Assembly (NCBI GenBank): GCA_003228175.2 | Contig: QGNQ01000005.1 | Location: forward strand, 1-64,000 | Direction: 5' to 3' | Source of the DNA: Chloroflexota bacterium | GTDB taxonomy: Bacteria > Chloroflexota > Dehalococcoidia > Bin125 | DNA length: 64,000 nt | Shown: positions 30,840 to 38,182 of the stretch, one piece after another | How the letters are laid out: every line of letters begins with the position of its first letter | How positions within the stretch are numbered: the stretch's first letter is position 1 | The notes under the pieces: generated by a model | What the model was told of the DNA's origin: nothing | What the model saw: the letters and a program-made list of their open reading frames with translations, nothing else | Databases searched by the model: none | Translations under genes and position numbers: made by a program

Positions 30840-30963
30840 CGGGGCGGGCGTGTCAGCGCGCCTCGGGTCAGGCCGTAGCCATGCGGAGGGGGGCTCGTTA
30901 TCCTGCGCTGGGCGTTGGAGTCCGGCGCCCCTGGACGAATGAGCTTCACACGAGGGGGGTCGG

Positions 30964-31830
30964 GTGCAGGATCTGCGATATGCGAAGGTCAGCACGGTGG
31001 ATGACGCCGTGGCGGCACTACAGGCGGGTGGGTCCACGGCACGGGTGCTGGCGGGCGGGACGGACGTCATTGTGCAGGCGCGGGCCCGTACCCGCGCGAT
31101 CGATATGTTGATCGATATTAAGGGCATCGATGAGGTGCTACAGGTTGCGTTTGACGCGGATGGCGGGCTCACGATTGGGGCAGCGGCGCCGTGCTACCGC
31201 ATCTACGGCGACGCCGACGTGCGCGAGCACTACCCGGCCCTGATCGATTGCTCGACGCTGATCGGCGGGACGGGCGTGCAGGGCCGCGCGAGCTTGGGCG
31301 GGAACCTGTGCAACTCGTCGCCGTCCGGGGATTCGATCCCGGCGATGATCGTGCTGGAGGGTCGGGCCGAGATCGCGGGACCGAACGGTCGTCGGACGGT
31401 GCCGGTGGAGGACTTTTGCACGGGTCCGGGCCGCAACGTGCTGGAGCCGGGCGAGTTGCTGGTCTCGATTCACTTTCCGGCGCCGGCGCCGAACAGTGGC
31501 GCGGCCTTCCTACGATTCATTCCGCGCAACGAGATGGACATCGCGGTGGTGAACGCGGCGACGCAGCTGCGCTTCGACGGGGACACGGTCTCCTGGGCGC
31601 GTGTCTCGCTTGGGGCGACGGCGCCAACACCGCTGTTCGTGACCGCGGCCGGGGAGGCGCTGGTGGGCGCTGCGCTGAGCGACGAGACGATCGCGGCGGC
31701 GGCGGCGGCGTCGAAAGCGGCCGCGAGCCCGATCGACGACATGCGCGGGTCGATCAAACAACGCAAGCATCTGTCGGCGGTGTATACGCAGCGGACGATC
31801 GCCATCGCGGCCGAACGGGCGCGCGGGTAA
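30964..31830 (+). CDS. FAD subunit of a xanthine-dehydrogenase-family Mo hydroxylase (CoxM type)
   Basis: A 288-residue medium subunit that carries FAD and passes electrons from the iron-sulfur subunit to the acceptor. The FAD-contact motifs are LAGGTDVIVQAR and the TIGAAAPCY region, and GGNLCNSSPSGDSIPA is the hallmark second FAD loop. A C-terminal CO_deh_flav_C domain follows from about residue 175. It starts with GTG behind a GAGGGGGG Shine-Dalgarno. It is the first of three consecutive genes in the order M-S-L, as in coxMSL-type clusters. Confidence 0.92.
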   Translation: MQDLRYAKVSTVDDAVAALQAGGSTARVLAGGTDVIVQARARTRAIDMLIDIKGIDEVLQVAFDADGGLTIGAAAPCYRIYGDADVREHYPALIDCSTLIGGTGVQGRASLGGNLCNSSPSGDSIPAMIVLEGRAEIAGPNGRRTVPVEDFCTGPGRNVLEPGELLVSIHFPAPAPNSGAAFLRFIPRNEMDIAVVNAATQLRFDGDTVSWARVSLGATAPTPLFVTAAGEALVGAALSDETIAAAAAASKAAASPIDDMRGSIKQRKHLSAVYTQRTIAIAAERARG

Positions 31831-31877
31831 GCAGCGCGATTCGTGAGCGAAACGAGCAGTCAGGGAAACGGGGCATC

Positions 31878-32360
31878 GTGAGCGACAAAATCATCGTCAG
31901 CGCCACCATCAACGGCGACCCGACGGACATCCTGGTCTCCTCGCGGGACAGTCTGCTGGAGGCGCTGCGTGAGCGCGCCGGGGTGCTGGGGGTCAAAGAG
32001 GGCTGCAACGACGGCAACTGCGGCGCTTGCTCCGTTCTACTGGACGGGCGGCTGGTGAACTCCTGCCTCGTGATGGCGGCGGAGGTCGAGGGGTCGGATG
32101 TGACGACCGTGGAAGGTCTCGCAGAGGCGGACCACCTGCACCCGCTGCAGCAGGCGTTCCTGGAGGACGCGGCGCTGCAATGCGGCATCTGCACGCCGGG
32201 CTTCCTGGTGGCGGCGAAGGCGTTGTTGGACGAGAATCCGAGCCCCAGTGAGCACGAGATTCGTTACTGGCTGGCGGGCAATCTTTGCCGCTGCACGGGC
32301 TACGACAAGATTGTGCGTGCGGTGCAGCACGCGGCGGAGACTTTGCAGACCACTTCTTAG
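31878..32360 (+). CDS. [2Fe-2S] subunit of the Mo hydroxylase (CoxS type)
   Basis: A 160-residue small subunit with two [2Fe-2S] clusters. The plant-ferredoxin-type cluster is bound by CNDGNCGACSVLLDG plus the Cys in LVNSC. The second, helical cluster is bound by CGICTPGF and NLCRCTGY. It starts with a GTG at 31878, and the coding frame runs far upstream only as out-of-family sequence. It relays electrons from the molybdenum subunit to the FAD subunit. It is in one operon with the flanking genes. Confidence 0.93.
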   Translation: MSDKIIVSATINGDPTDILVSSRDSLLEALRERAGVLGVKEGCNDGNCGACSVLLDGRLVNSCLVMAAEVEGSDVTTVEGLAEADHLHPLQQAFLEDAALQCGICTPGFLVAAKALLDENPSPSEHEIRYWLAGNLCRCTGYDKIVRAVQHAAETLQTTS

Positions 32361-32416
32361 CCGCGCAGGCCGCGCGGCGATCGACCCCAGAGAGACTCGC
32401 ACTGAAAGGCTGGCCC

Positions 32417-34669
32417 ATGGTCACGACCGAGAAGCCCAAGTACAAGGTTGTTGGTACCCGCCCGATTCGCCCCGACGGGGTCGAGAAAGTGAACGGTCGG
32501 GCGGAGTACGGGGCGGACGTGAGTTTGCCGGGACTGTTGCCGGGCGCCGTGCTGCGCAGCCCTCACGCGCATGCCCGGATTCTTTCGATCGACACGTCGA
32601 AGGCGGAAGCGATGGCGGGCGTTCGGGCGGTGGTGACCAGCGCGGACTTCCCCCCGCGCGAGGGCGACGGCCCGCAGGCCCGCGACAACGTTCTGGCGCA
32701 CGACAAGGTGCTCTACGTGGGGCATGCGGTCGCGGCCGTGGCGGCGGTCGATCTGCATACGGCGGAGGACGCCGTAGAGCTGATCGAGGTGCAGTACGAA
32801 GTGTTGCCGCACGTGATGGATGTGCGCGACGCGATGCTGGACGGCGCTCCGATCCTGGATGCGACGTTGCGCACGGGGGAGCCGGACGGTTCCAAGGGGG
32901 ACAGCGCAACGAACGTGGCGCAGCACATTCATTACGAGAAGGGTGATCTGGCGGCGGGCTTCGCGGAGGCGGACATCGTCATTGAGCGGGAATACGAGAC
33001 GACGATGGCCCACCAGGGCTACATCGAGCCGCAAAACGGCACGGCGCTGTGGGGTCCCGACGACCAGATTCGGATCTGGACCAGCACGCAGGGACTTTTC
33101 GCGGTGCGCGACACCGTGGCGGGGATGCTGGGTCTGCCGGTGAAGAGTGTCAAGGTGGAACCGGTGGAGATCGGCGGCGGTTTTGGAGGCAAGATTCCCA
33201 CGTACCTGCCGCCGGTCGCGGCGTTGCTTTCGCGGAAGTCCGGGAAGCCGGTGAAGCTGACGATGTCCCGCAAGGAGGTGTTGGAGGCGACGGGTCCGAC
33301 GTCTGGGACGTACATGCGCGTCAAGATGGGCGCGAAGAAGGACGGCACGTTGACGGCCATGGAGGCCTGGCTGGCGTTCGAGGCAGGGGGCTACCCGGGG
33401 TCGCCGGTGGGCGCTGCGACGATGTGCGTGTTCGCGCCGTACGCCTGTGCGAATCAGGTGATCGATGGCTATGACGTGCTCGTCAACAAGCCGCAGACGG
33501 CGGCGTACCGGGCGCCGGGCGCGCCGGCGTCGGAGTACGCGGCGGAATGCTTGATCGACGAGATCGCCGAGGCGCTGGATCGGGATCCGCTGGAGCTGCG
33601 CCTGCAGAACTCGGTCAAAGAGGGGGACAGCCGGGCGGACGGGTTCACCTACGGTCCGGTAGGGCACGTGGAGTGCCTGCAGGAGGCGCAGGAGAGCCCG
33701 CACTACCAGTCGGAGCTGAGCGGCGAGAACCGCGGGCGCGGGGTGGCCTCCGGCTTCTGGTTCAACATTGGCTTCGAGACGAGCATGGCGGCGCAGATTC
33801 AGTCGGACGGGACGGTGCCGCTGGTGATGGGCGCGGTCGATATCGGTGGCAGCCGGGCCTCGGCGGCGATGCAGTTCGCGGAGACGCTGGGGATCGCGTC
33901 GGAGGACATCAAGCCGCACATCGTCGACACGGACTCGGTGGGCTTCACGTTCCTGACGGGTGGCAGTCGGACGGCGTTCGCGAATGGCTGGGCCGCGTAT
34001 GAGTGCGCGATGGACATGCGTCGCCAGATGGAGGAGCGCGCCGCGACGATCTGGGACTGCGACCGCGAGTCCGTGCGCTACGACGACGACGGCGTGATCC
34101 GCGGCCCCGCCGCCGCCGCCGGCGCGCCGCAGGAGTTCACGTTCAAGGAGTTGGCGGCGGAGCTGCCGAACACCGGTGGCGGCATCGTGGGGCGGGCAGA
34201 CGTGTCGAAGACGACGCACGGGCCGGCCTTCGCGACGCACATCGTGGATGTGGAAGTTGACGCGGAGACGGGCAAGGTTGAGGTGCTGCGCTACACGGCG
34301 ATTCAGGATGTGGGGACGGCGATCCACCCGTCGTACGTGGAGGGGCAGATGCAGGGTGGCGCGGCGCAGGGCATTGGGATGGCGCTGAACGAGGAGTACA
34401 TCTGGGACGACAAGGGCCGGATGGTGAACTCCAGCTTGCTGGACTACCGGATGCCGACGGCGCTTGACCTGCCGATGCTGGACACGATTATTGTGGAGGT
34501 GCCGAACCCGGGGCACCCGTACGGCGTGCGTGGTGTTGGCGAGGTGCCGATTATTCCGCCCGCGCCGGCGCTGCACGCGGCGATCTACAACGCGATCGGC
34601 GAGCGTATGCGCACCCTGCCGATGTCGCCACGTCGGATCTTGGAGCGCACGCTGCCGGACGACGAGTAG
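32417..34669 (+). CDS. molybdopterin-binding large subunit (CoxL/XdhB type)
   Basis: A 750-residue catalytic subunit holding the molybdenum-cytosine-dinucleotide or related cofactor. It has the N-terminal KVNGRAEYGADV start of the family, the Moco motif EIGGGFGGK and the active-site glutamate in GVRGVGEVP near the C-terminus. The loop over the metal reads AYRAPGAP, not the AYRCSFR of form-I CO dehydrogenase, so CO oxidation is unlikely. A hydroxylase of a purine, nicotinate-like heterocycle or aldehyde is more probable. The ATG at 32417 is assigned because the upstream sequence overlaps coxS. The next gene is a small CysO-like protein. Confidence 0.92.
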   Translation: MVTTEKPKYKVVGTRPIRPDGVEKVNGRAEYGADVSLPGLLPGAVLRSPHAHARILSIDTSKAEAMAGVRAVVTSADFPPREGDGPQARDNVLAHDKVLYVGHAVAAVAAVDLHTAEDAVELIEVQYEVLPHVMDVRDAMLDGAPILDATLRTGEPDGSKGDSATNVAQHIHYEKGDLAAGFAEADIVIEREYETTMAHQGYIEPQNGTALWGPDDQIRIWTSTQGLFAVRDTVAGMLGLPVKSVKVEPVEIGGGFGGKIPTYLPPVAALLSRKSGKPVKLTMSRKEVLEATGPTSGTYMRVKMGAKKDGTLTAMEAWLAFEAGGYPGSPVGAATMCVFAPYACANQVIDGYDVLVNKPQTAAYRAPGAPASEYAAECLIDEIAEALDRDPLELRLQNSVKEGDSRADGFTYGPVGHVECLQEAQESPHYQSELSGENRGRGVASGFWFNIGFETSMAAQIQSDGTVPLVMGAVDIGGSRASAAMQFAETLGIASEDIKPHIVDTDSVGFTFLTGGSRTAFANGWAAYECAMDMRRQMEERAATIWDCDRESVRYDDDGVIRGPAAAAGAPQEFTFKELAAELPNTGGGIVGRADVSKTTHGPAFATHIVDVEVDAETGKVEVLRYTAIQDVGTAIHPSYVEGQMQGGAAQGIGMALNEEYIWDDKGRMVNSSLLDYRMPTALDLPMLDTIIVEVPNPGHPYGVRGVGEVPIIPPAPALHAAIYNAIGERMRTLPMSPRRILERTLPDDE

Positions 34670-34702
34670 CCGCCGGCGAGAGGAAGCGCGAGCGGCGAGA
34701 CG

Positions 34703-35014
34703 ATGGCTGTCGTCATTGTGCCGCCGCTGCTGCGTGCGCTGACGGGCGACATCGATCGCGTGGAGGTGCCGGGCAATTCGCTGCGCAAGGTGATCAATGA
34801 GCTGGAGGCGCGCTATCCGGGCGTGAAAGAGCGCTTGGTTGTTGGCACGCGGATCCGGCCGGAGATCTCGATCGCGGTGAACGGCGGTATCGTCGCGGCG
34901 GGGTTGGTGGAGCCGATTGGCGAGCACGACGAGATTCTGATCATTCCGGCGATCTCGGGCGGGGCCGCTTTCGTCGCCGATGCGGTTGTCTCGACGATGG
35001 CCTGGGGCCACTGA
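34703..35014 (+). CDS. CysO/MoaD-like ubiquitin-fold protein with C-terminal tail
   Basis: A 103-residue beta-grasp protein similar to mycobacterial CysO and to MoaD/ThiS sulfur carriers: VVIVPPLLRALTG at the start, then NELEARYPGVKERL and ILIIPAISGG. In working carriers the chain ends at the Gly-Gly so that it can be activated. Here GG is at residues 86-87 and a further 16 residues (AAFVADAVVSTMAWGH) follow in frame. The stop overlaps the start of the next gene (TGATG). It lies directly behind the Mo hydroxylase genes, so a role in Moco or sulfur chemistry is plausible, but the tail would have to be removed first. Confidence 0.8.
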   Translation: MAVVIVPPLLRALTGDIDRVEVPGNSLRKVINELEARYPGVKERLVVGTRIRPEISIAVNGGIVAAGLVEPIGEHDEILIIPAISGGAAFVADAVVSTMAWGH

Positions 35015-35805
35015 TGGCGACACTGCAGCGCGACGCGTCGGTGCGCATCCCCTACGCGGTGCAGGGCGAGGGCCCGGCGATCCTGCTGATCAACGGCGCG
35101 ACGCTGCCGCTTGGCTTCTGGGATCCCGTCGTGAAGCGGCTGGCGTCGCGCTTTCGCGTGATCCGGTTCGACCAGCGCAACGCGGGCGCAAGTGACTTCA
35201 CAGGCAGTTTCACGCTGCTGGATGTCGCGGCGGACATCGCGGCGCTGCTGACGGCGTTGGAGATTGAGCGCGCGGTGATCGTCGGGCACGCCTGGGGCGG
35301 TCGTGTGGCGCAGGTGTTCGCGCGAGACTACCCGCATCGCACGCGGGGGCTGATCGTGTGCGGGACGGGCGGACAGTTTCCGCCCGATCTGGATCCGGCG
35401 TGGCTGTCGGCGATGGGGGCGGCTCGCAAGGCGGGGGAGCGGGCGACATGGGACGATTTGCTGGAACGGATCTACTGCGCACCGGGGTATTCGTTGCGGG
35501 ATGCGGCGGGCTTCGTGGCGACTGGGGATGTGATCTGGAACGCGCCTCGCGTGCGGGGTGCGAAGCCGGACATGCGGGTCGCGCCGAGCTCCAGCTATTG
35601 GGGCACGGCGATGGGACCGGCGTTGTTAATCTACGCGGAGCACGATCGATTCGGGACGCCGGCGAATGCGCGGGATCTCTCGTCACGGCTGCCGGAGGCT
35701 CGGCTGGAGGTGCTCACGGGGGCGGGGCATTTGCTGGTGCGTGAGCAGTCGGAACGGGTGGTTGCGCTGGTGGGGGACTTTATGGAGGCGCTGCCGGTCG
35801 AGTAG
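35014..35805 (+). CDS. alpha/beta-hydrolase-fold protein lacking the nucleophile
   Basis: A 263-residue alpha/beta hydrolase-fold protein, coupled to the CysO-like gene by a one-base overlap. The nucleophile elbow reads GHAWGG, with Ala93 where Ser, or Asp in the epoxide hydrolase/dehalogenase group (GHDWGG), is required. The other triad members appear kept: Asp211 in YAEHDRFG and His239 in GAGHLL. It is therefore either a non-hydrolytic member, a binding protein, or an enzyme using another mechanism. The fold is otherwise complete. Composition is like its neighbours, so recent transfer is not indicated. Confidence 0.8.
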   Translation: MATLQRDASVRIPYAVQGEGPAILLINGATLPLGFWDPVVKRLASRFRVIRFDQRNAGASDFTGSFTLLDVAADIAALLTALEIERAVIVGHAWGGRVAQVFARDYPHRTRGLIVCGTGGQFPPDLDPAWLSAMGAARKAGERATWDDLLERIYCAPGYSLRDAAGFVATGDVIWNAPRVRGAKPDMRVAPSSSYWGTAMGPALLIYAEHDRFGTPANARDLSSRLPEARLEVLTGAGHLLVREQSERVVALVGDFMEALPVE

Positions 35806-35815
35806 CGGTCGCGGA

Positions 35816-37156
35816 TCAGTCCTCGTGGGCGGTGGTGGTGAGGAGGGCGATGCTGGCGGTGAAGCCGTGCAGGTAGTTGCTGCCGCCGACGGGGCCGATT
35901 TCCCCGTTGCAGAAGAGGCCGGTGGTGGGGATGGGCCCGAGCGCTTCGGCGACGGCGGCGGCGTCGTGGTGGGGGGCGCCGAAGAGTCCCTGCCCGCGGC
36001 TGTTGCAGGCGCAGAGCACGGAGCCGAGCACGACTTCGCCGTCCGGGAGCGCGTCGCGGGCGGCGAGGAGGTGCTCGCGCAGGTCGTCGTCGGCGGCGGC
36101 GGCGTCGCGGAACTGGAACTGGAAGGTCTGGCCGACGCGCGGGACGGCGTTGATGGCGATGGCGCCGGTCCGACGGTCGACGCCGGTGATGTTGCGAATG
36201 AGGAAGTCGCCGCGGCCGTGCTCGGCCTGGTACTCGTTCATGGCGAGGCCGACGAGGAGGTTGTGGCCGACGCGCTCCTGGGTGGCTTCGTCGAGCGCGA
36301 CCATGGTCTCCTTGAGGACGTCTAGCGCTGGCCGCGAGCCGATGGTTTTGACGAGGTTCTTGTCGCAGTCGGTGATGGTGAGGGGACGGCCGAGCGGTTC
36401 CGCGCCTTGGGCGACGATGGGTGTGACGCCGAGTCCCTTGATGCCGAGGAGGACGGCGCCGTCCTCGTAGGCTTTGCCGTCGAGGAAGACGGCGGTGCCG
36501 GTCCCGCGGTTGTGCGACGAGGCCATGCCACCCAGCAGGACGATGTCGGAGAGGCGGCCCTGCAGGCCCTTGACGAGGTTGTCGGTGTTGAGGCTGAAGG
36601 GGTCGGCGAAGATCAGCCAGGTGCCGGTTCCGGCCTGGGTGAGAGCGGCGAGATCCTCTTCTTTGGTGATACCGGGGATGACGGGGATGGGGGTGAAGTG
36701 TGCGCCGGGCAGTTGCAGGGTGAGGACGGACAGGGCGGCCCCGTCTTCCGCCTCAACGCCGCTGCCGATCACGCTCTGGCCGGTGCAGCCGATGAGGTGC
36801 CGGGCACGGAGGCCCTCTTGCAGCCGCTTGGTGAGTTCTCGGTGATGCCCGAAGAGCGAGTCGGCGAAGACGATCGCCAGATCCACCGGTTCGTCGCTTC
36901 GGAGGTCCGCGAGGACGGCCTCGACGGCGTCCTCCCAGGTGTCGCCGCCGCGGAGCGCGGAGCGGGATCGGGCGGCGCCGGCGGTAACGCGGGCGGACGC
37001 TGCGAGCGGGGTCTCGTCCTCGTTTTGGTCCGGCTGCGGCTGCTCCAGGTCTGGCTCGCCGGCGGCGGGGAGGTTCACGTCCTGTGGGGTGAGGTCATTG
37101 CTGCGGCTGCTGGGCGCGCCAGGATCGGTGGTGGGGGTGGGGTCGCCGTTGGGCAT
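35816..37156 (-). CDS. FIST-domain sensory protein
   Basis: A 446-residue protein with FIST_N and FIST_C domains, the extracytoplasmic-type ligand sensor proposed to bind small molecules such as amino acids. The N-terminal about 65 residues are polar and probably disordered. FIST_N begins near DLAIVFADSLFGHHRE. FIST_C carries CNSRGQGLFG and the conserved FCNGEIGPVGG near the end. No kinase, GGDEF or chemotaxis output domain is fused, so it is a stand-alone form. No signal peptide is visible. The ATG at 37156 follows GAGAGGAAC. It is divergent from the inositol-phosphatase-like gene. Confidence 0.9.
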   Translation of the reverse strand: MPNGDPTPTTDPGAPSSRSNDLTPQDVNLPAAGEPDLEQPQPDQNEDETPLAASARVTAGAARSRSALRGGDTWEDAVEAVLADLRSDEPVDLAIVFADSLFGHHRELTKRLQEGLRARHLIGCTGQSVIGSGVEAEDGAALSVLTLQLPGAHFTPIPVIPGITKEEDLAALTQAGTGTWLIFADPFSLNTDNLVKGLQGRLSDIVLLGGMASSHNRGTGTAVFLDGKAYEDGAVLLGIKGLGVTPIVAQGAEPLGRPLTITDCDKNLVKTIGSRPALDVLKETMVALDEATQERVGHNLLVGLAMNEYQAEHGRGDFLIRNITGVDRRTGAIAINAVPRVGQTFQFQFRDAAAADDDLREHLLAARDALPDGEVVLGSVLCACNSRGQGLFGAPHHDAAAVAEALGPIPTTGLFCNGEIGPVGGSNYLHGFTASIALLTTTAHED

Positions 37157-37249
37157 GTCGTTCCTCTCGCTCCGGGCGATTGTAGCGAGGCAGGCGGGGA
37201 CCGGGAGTCGCGGGGGGACGCTCCAGGTGCGCGTTGGCAGTCCGGTCCT

Positions 37250-37255
37250 TAGGGT
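37250..37255 (+). promoter_or_regulatory. candidate -10 box, leaderless start
   Basis: TAGGGT ends six bases before the GTG at 37262. This geometry matches three other genes in the window and favours 37262 over the preceding in-frame GTG at 37259 as the start. Confidence 0.35.
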
Positions 37256-37261
37256 GGCGTG

Positions 37262-38182
37262 GTGCCCAACGAGAGTGTGTTGCCCGACGCCGAGACATTG
37301 AAGCCCATTGAGGAGGCGGCGATTGCGATCGCCCGGGAGGGCGGCGCGCTGATCCTGGACCGCTTCCGGTCGGCGCTGAACGTGGAGTTCAAGTCGGGCA
37401 ACAACGACGATCCGGTGACGGAGGTCGATAAGGCGGTCGAGGCGCAGGTGCTGGCGCGGGTGAAAGCGGACTTCCCGGACCACGCGGTGTTAGGCGAGGA
37501 GGGGACGAACCACGGCGCCCCGGGCGCGGACTTCGTCTGGGCGATCGACCCGCTGGACGGCACGACGAACTTCATCAATGGGCTGGGGATCTTCTGCTGT
37601 TCGATTGGCGTTCTGTGGCGCGGGGCTCCGGTGGTGGGTGCGTTGTTTCTGCCCGAGGGGCGGCACATCGGTTCCGGCGTGTACCACTCGCGCCGCGGCG
37701 GTGGCGCGTACTTCGAGGACGAGCGCTTCGAGTTTCGCACGCCGACGCTGCCGGTGGGGTCGCGGATCAGTTCGGTGCCGGCGGGGCTGACGGGTGTCGA
37801 CGGTCGCAAGGGGCGGTATGCGTTCGGCACGGTGCGCACGCTGGGGAGTTCCGCGGCGGAGCTGGTCCTGACGGCGGAGGGGACGTTCCAGGTAGGCGTA
37901 TTTCACAGCCTGCGGATCTGGGATGTGGCGGCGGGGGCGGCGATCTGCAAGGAGTCGGGCGCGGCGGTGTGGGTGCGTCGGGACGGCGGGGCGCCCTGGG
38001 AGGAGTTGCAGCACTTCCGCGGGGGTCTCGATCGGGCGCCGAGCCTGGAGGAGCTGCGCGGTTGGAACGATTGGCTGGCGGCGGGCGAGCCCAGCCTGCT
38101 GCCGGAGCTGCCGCAGAGTTTGCAGCGGGCGCAGTCGCGGCGGTCGGTGGTGAAGCGGATGATCTTCGGCAAGGACGACTGA
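37262..38182 (+). CDS. inositol-monophosphatase family protein
   Basis: A 306-residue magnesium-dependent phosphatase of the IMPase/FBPase/CysQ superfamily. Metal-binding motifs are complete: GEEG after strand 3, DPLDGTTNF and the C-terminal WDVAAGAAICKESGA. The substrate might be myo-inositol phosphate, histidinol phosphate, fructose bisphosphate or PAP; the sequence does not decide. The C-terminus carries about 60 extra polar residues (after VWVRRDGG) compared with short family members. A GTG start is likely, probably on a leaderless message. Confidence 0.88.
   Translation: MPNESVLPDAETLKPIEEAAIAIAREGGALILDRFRSALNVEFKSGNNDDPVTEVDKAVEAQVLARVKADFPDHAVLGEEGTNHGAPGADFVWAIDPLDGTTNFINGLGIFCCSIGVLWRGAPVVGALFLPEGRHIGSGVYHSRRGGGAYFEDERFEFRTPTLPVGSRISSVPAGLTGVDGRKGRYAFGTVRTLGSSAAELVLTAEGTFQVGVFHSLRIWDVAAGAAICKESGAAVWVRRDGGAPWEELQHFRGGLDRAPSLEELRGWNDWLAAGEPSLLPELPQSLQRAQSRRSVVKRMIFGKDD

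Follow-up and report, generated by a model that had tools for sequence, protein, structure and literature searches.

The ubiquitin-fold gene examined here encodes, in frame, 16 residues (AAFVADAVVSTMAWGH) behind its Gly-Gly pair at positions 86-87, and we propose, with a probability of roughly 0.6, that this tail is a dispensable pro-segment that arose through a local insertion and is cut off by a JAMM protease, after which the Gly-Gly would be usable. Among the readings weighed below, proteolytic exposure of the Gly-Gly is the best explanation. Two ideas are separated in this proposal: the tail in the window (the whole 64,000-nucleotide stretch analysed) appears to be an accident; tolerating tails is widespread in the phylum and makes most sense if tails are trimmed. 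The proposal yields a prediction, cheap to make, for every ubiquitin-fold carrier of these bacteria, most of them uncultured, and points to a carrier linked to a Mo hydroxylase that has no assigned job.

A ubiquitin-fold carrier with residues beyond its Gly-Gly

Translation and a Pfam match confirm the ubiquitin-fold ORF and its in-frame extension described in the first-pass annotation (Table 1). The ThiS profile PF02597 matches up to its last position (76/76, E = 2.1e-9), which coincides exactly with the Gly-Gly of the carrier, and the score of 38.2 bits lies above the cut-off of 22.5. The thresholds of the NCBIfam models moaD_arch (44.8 against 49.5) and SAMP1 (36.4 against 60) were not reached. 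By sequence, the closest solved relatives are the CysO proteins of Amycolatopsis (4n6e_B, E = 1.3e-9) and M. tuberculosis (3dwg_C, E = 7.7e-9), and the same two chains are the top Foldseek matches of the AF2 model (CysO E = 4.2e-7, TM 0.76/0.87). Built from 2 sequences only, this model has a mean pLDDT of 73.3; its body, mostly at 80-90, is predicted to adopt the beta-grasp fold, and residues 86-103 fall below 50, with a helix drawn in the tail at very low confidence, so that the tail has no confident structure in the prediction. The encoded C-terminus lies 16 residues beyond the Gly-Gly. The protein can be assigned to PF02597 by its sequence, and it would act as a sulfur carrier only if processed. 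Comparison with the sister species over 87 codons, a stretch that ends before the tail, gave dN = 0.146 and dS = 0.64 (dN/dS about 0.23); this divergence marks the ORF as a genuine gene kept by purifying selection.

The annotation had also coupled the carrier to a hydrolase lacking its nucleophile and placed it behind a Mo hydroxylase, and both statements hold. The hydrolase ATG at 35014 shares one base with the carrier stop codon (a TGATG overlap), its nucleophile elbow reads GHAWG with Ala where serine is expected, and the FAD, FeS and Mo subunits of an enzyme of the xanthine dehydrogenase family lie upstream.

Table 1 Features of the carrier gene and its neighbourhood in the window
Feature	Position	Strand	Evidence or remark
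FAD subunit, xanthine-dehydrogenase-family enzyme	30964..31830	+	PF00941, PF03450
2Fe-2S subunit (approximate start)	31860..32360	+	PF01799, PF00111
Mo-binding large subunit, xanthine dehydrogenase family	32420..34669	+	PF02738, PF20256, PF01315
Carrier ORF	34703-35014	+	ATG start, 103 aa, TGA stop at 35012-35014
ThiS/MoaD-family beta-grasp domain, carrier residues 1-87	34703..34963	+	Pfam PF02597 10-87; AF2; Foldseek
Gly86-Gly87, putative functional terminus of the carrier	34958..34963	+	GG in 212/212 class-wide relatives
Lineage-specific tail of 16 residues (Ala at P1' and P2') with TGA stop	34964..35014	+	blastn against sister; pLDDT
Inserted alpha/beta hydrolase, Ala replacing the nucleophile (GHAWG)	35014..35805	+	PF00561, E 3.5e-25
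FIST N/C-domain protein, convergent neighbour, marker of the ancestral junction	35816..37483	-	PF08495, PF10442

The tail coincides with an inserted hydrolase gene

Alignment of the window by blastn with the corresponding contig of the sister species (G001:C265) covered 30954-34962 and then 35837-37021. Homology therefore breaks at the Gly-Gly (34962) and resumes 875 bp further on, within the FIST gene (35837); the 16 tail codons, the stop codon and the hydrolase are missing from the sister, whose own carrier ends GG-GDRPPRAG. In members of the same family from genus g4, the gene order is Mo subunit, carrier and convergent FIST gene (FIST domains confirmed), with no hydrolase between them. Across the 212 distinct carriers that we compared, the FIST gene converges on the carrier in 13 loci, and a hydrolase of this kind lies directly downstream in one, that of the window. 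Since the hydrolase is absent at this junction in the sister and the g4 outgroups and stands behind 1/212 carriers, it entered in the lineage of the window. As far as the alignments indicate, the tail is either sequence brought by the insertion or a rewritten junction, and in either case a local, young feature private to the species. The first-pass annotation had suggested looking for homologues that share the tail, and none of the other carriers among the 212 does.

Three other accounts of this junction were rejected. The tail is not a conserved pro-peptide, as no relative shares it. Nor is the hydrolase an ancient operon member lost in the sister, given that outgroups keep the carrier and FIST genes adjacent without it and that it follows no other of the 212 carriers. 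Within 34850-35950, the trace expected of a mobile-element scar amounted to one 16-nt imperfect direct repeat, located inside the hydrolase gene, with no inverted repeats.

From these comparisons we propose the following course of events. The insertion that brought the hydrolase gene between carrier and FIST removed the old stop codon and left 16 encoded residues behind the Gly-Gly, as the sister and the outgroups show; these residues would have no function of their own. A Mec-like JAMM metallopeptidase would then cut after Gly87, and the exposed Gly-Gly would be adenylated and thiocarboxylated by a MoeB-type E1.

Gly-Gly is fixed and the sequence behind it is free

A profile built for the purpose yielded the 212 distinct carriers from 242 loci; most of these loci had been found through P0001 searches, which biases the set towards this family and class. 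GGG ends (IGGG) were counted as bare GG, and the second domain of L090, cut by the end of its locus, was excluded. The Gly-Gly is kept in all 212 carriers, of which 105 end there and 107 continue into unrelated sequence: by 1 residue in 20, 2-3 in 36, 4-20 in 30, 21-120 in 5 and more than 200 in 16, the last being E1 fusions. On the tree of these carriers, the bare or tailed state changed at least 51 times and E1 fusion just twice. All four carriers found in the genome of the window extend past the Gly-Gly, by 16 residues, by 7 (AARPPSE), by 4 (ATVA) and as a MoeB fusion; so do all four found in the sister (8, 3 and 14 residues, and a fusion), which has a MoaD-MoaE fusion besides. According to our proposal, tails would come and go across the phylum because cutting makes them irrelevant, and selection would keep only the Gly-Gly and small residues right behind it; the pattern itself is observed.

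Directly behind the Mo large subunit, 65 of 103 carriers end bare and 38 are tailed, 18 with 1-3 residues, 15 with 4-20 and 5 with more. These counts bear on the possibility that the tail is purely a local accident, in which the insertion destroyed the stop codon, the tail stays on, the carrier is impaired or dead and the gene is being lost. That the tail is private to the species and coincides with the insertion would agree with such a history, as would the 65 bare relatives, but the purifying selection measured against the sister would not, nor would the residues that the sister itself carries past its Gly-Gly; moreover, the many kinds of tail in the other 38 argue that tails are not rare accidents. 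We consider this reading unlikely. The annotation had held that homologues ending at the Gly-Gly, with the tail explained by a local stop mutation, would speak against it: 105/212 do end there and the tail came with an inserted hydrolase gene, which together largely bear this out, but the other 107 carry tails of other kinds.

The same invariance weighs on the idea that the protein has no C-terminal carrier role and is instead a Mo-enzyme subunit or chaperone with a structural Gly-Gly. Although the gene is tied to the Mo subunit (103/212) and not to ThiG, MoaE or CysM, a structural role would be hard to reconcile with a Gly-Gly kept in every carrier while the sequence behind it is free, and found at the flexible terminus (pLDDT under 50 from residue 86 onwards) of a fold that matches sulfur carriers. 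The non-carrier role that the annotation had offered as an option thus finds no support, and the protein is probably not a non-carrier; this account seems to us somewhat less plausible than the accident. Less probable again is a tail selected as a pro-peptide that delays activation or couples the carrier to hydrolase synthesis: the TGATG overlap permits translational coupling and P1' and P2' are both Ala, but no relative has the tail sequence and the hydrolase neighbour occurs in 1/212. A sequencing or assembly error, conceivable in a draft of 76 contigs, is scarcely credible given that homology breaks exactly at the Gly-Gly, that a whole intact hydrolase ORF is included and that no frameshift is required.

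In two loci (L253 and L263), the ThiS reading frame stays open for another 181 residues, which are hydrophobic and resemble a membrane protein, with an internal Met soon after the Gly-Gly; this would represent either a fusion or a stop codon lost before the next gene.

Small residues predominate at P1'

Ala, Ser or Gly follows the Gly-Gly at P1' in 75/107 extended carriers, and their share falls to 42/87 at P2', 13/57 at P3' and 14/51 at P4'. With one tail drawn per 65%-identity cluster (53 clusters), their share is 0.68 at P1' and 0.27 across P3'-P6'; over 1000 draws, p had a median of 9e-7 and was 1e-4 at worst. Such a residue stands at P1' in 28/35 free tails that are at least 4 residues long. 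Of all 107 tails, 32 start with other residues (V, R, Q, E, D, H, I, K and others). ThiS of the phylum, meant as a bare-GG control, proved unfit, as 35/95 ThiS also extend past the Gly-Gly; used as a replicate, it gave A/S/G in 24/35 at P1' versus 9/33 at P2'. No stop codon becomes an Ala codon through a single base change, and the P1' bias is therefore not simple stop loss. The small P1' residues could in part be inherited rather than selected.

Mutational data on a JAMM site are available for CsRpn11, in which Glu at P1' or Trp at P2' stops cutting and Gly at P1' speeds it (PMC6043591). The tail in the window starts with Ala-Ala, which fits this tolerance. Fixed Gly-Gly, free tail turnover and small P1' residues together may be read as a sequence-only signature of JAMM processing, one that agrees with the published mutational test. 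Tails are frequent and not conserved, and all that they share is a cuttable residue directly after an invariant Gly-Gly; this makes trimming by a JAMM peptidase likely. A literature search, largely of open-access journals, turned up no account of such tails, or of a P1' rule, for the carriers of Chloroflexota.

A single intact JAMM peptidase is encoded beside a CysO–MoeB fusion

The genome of the window is a draft (84.7% complete), and its only Prok-JAB match, on contig C46 (C46:18005-18370; L053:8982-9527 in the numbering of that locus; PF14464, 73.6 bits), has all residues of the JAMM motif HSHx7SxxD (HSHTMTEARPSPTD) and the upstream Glu, and is predicted to be catalytically intact. The search for JAMM/Mec-like peptidases and MoeB that the annotation had recommended thus found one intact JAMM, and beside it a ThiS-ThiF (CysO::MoeB) fusion that is the sole ThiF match in the genome; the cluster further comprises a free carrier (CysO), a PLP-dependent enzyme of the CysK/CysM type and a rhodanese. 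No cysteine synthase or Mec-type JAMM is encoded alongside the carrier of the window; the cluster that holds these, its own CysO included, lies on C46. MoaE was not found in this incomplete genome, leaving no MoaE partner nearby or fused. As JAMM paralogues differ in substrate choice, the C46 peptidase may not serve the carrier of the window.

The fusion on C46 (L053:5118-6221) joins a CysO-like carrier in frame to a MoeB/ThiF E1 (GG-SVMTAEQ...) and is conserved in the sister and across the class (16/212). A MoaD-MoaE fusion is found on another contig of the sister (L113:1-714) and in four other family members viewed (L110, L112, L117 and L118).

Nearly all carrier-bearing relatives have a JAMM, so that the two are linked by presence and a comparison with JAMM-less genomes is powerless. 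JAMM absence was called at an E-value cut of 1e-8 in the phylum set and, for the 64% complete genome of L292, from a separate search. Free tails occurred on 0/6 ThiS from genomes without a match and on 29/89 of the rest (p = 0.17), with only six in the first group and the second checked for JAMM in part. One of these six is a ThiS-ThiG fusion, which counts against a strict JAMM rule.

Taken together, the cleaved pro-form suggested in the annotation is plausible, on grounds other than those given there: tails in 107/212 carriers, Gly-Gly in 212/212, small P1' residues and the presence of a JAMM and a MoeB-type E1. The tail is not a conserved pro-peptide. The MoeB-fused carrier and the MoaD-MoaE fusion of the sister would depend on the same JAMM cut. 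More tentatively, and at less than even odds, Chloroflexota sulfur carriers might as a rule be JAMM-activated pro-proteins in which the sequence past the Gly-Gly is free except for small P1'/P2' residues, with every carrier found in the genus of the window (free, MoeB-fused and the MoaE-fused one of the sister) needing the same cut. If so, the supply of sulfur for the molybdenum cofactor, for cysteine and for the Mo hydroxylase would all pass through one JAMM peptidase.

Relation to known processing systems

In the QbsE/QbsD system of Pseudomonas, a JAMM trims the residues after the Gly-Gly of a sulfur carrier. The short tail and the JAMM partner resemble the present case; the siderophore pathway does not. 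The Thermus "MoaD related protein" 1v8c (168 aa) likewise has a MoaD domain whose chain continues past the Gly-Gly, but its extension is about 80 residues long.

CysO of M. tuberculosis and Amycolatopsis, with the Mec+ JAMM, is nearest in fold and sequence, and the genome of the window has a CysO/cysteine-synthase/MoeB/JAMM cluster of its own. CysO is thiocarboxylated at its last glycine, and Mec+ frees cysteine from it (PMC3227635). The carrier of the window, in contrast, stands outside that cluster, in a Mo-hydroxylase operon, and the matched CysO chains end at the Gly-Gly. The "CysO-like" label is accordingly apt for fold and sequence but not for the pathway.

Cutting behind a MoaD-type Gly-Gly is described for fusions: MoaX of M. 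tuberculosis is cut at Gly82|Ser83, and the cleavage is needed (PMC4326299), while DRJAMM of Deinococcus cleaves MoaD-MoaE (PMC8832034). In these proteins, too, a chain stands behind the Gly-Gly and is cut for activity, as we infer for the carrier of the window, but their extension is a working enzyme domain rather than a short private tail. Release of fused ThiS/MoaD by JAB peptidases was predicted by Iyer et al. (PMC1779556). The CsUb and CsSAMP precursors of Caldiarchaeum, processed by CsRpn11/CsJAMM, are also ubiquitin-fold precursors; they are cut precisely after Gly-Gly and blocked by bulky P1'/P2' residues, although the system is an archaeal one for protein modification. In that study, CsRpn11 did not cut the SAMP precursors, a difference in substrate choice between JAMM paralogues (PMC6043591).

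The Mo-linked carrier and the hydrolase family

A MoaD/ThiS-type carrier directly after the C-terminal part of a xanthine-dehydrogenase-family Mo large subunit forms a conserved pair in the class (103/212 loci), and this linkage changed 11 times on the tree. From this gene order we would guess that the Mo-linked carrier is a dedicated sulfur donor to the Mo enzyme. Iyer et al. (2006) link MoaD with a tungsten aldehyde oxidoreductase; the words "xanthine" and "molybdenum hydroxylase" are both absent from their text (PMC1779556).

The GHAWG elbow recurs in 6 of the 11 other hydrolase loci viewed (L032-L037), all from genus g4. Its presence in six genomes argues against a local Ser-to-Ala mutation; the nucleophile-less hydrolase of the window belongs with them to a small family in which the elbow Ala is conserved. 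Of four g4 regions inspected, three (G009, G015 and G008) have the hydrolase gene beside a putative flavin-monooxygenase-like gene, named from its sequence.
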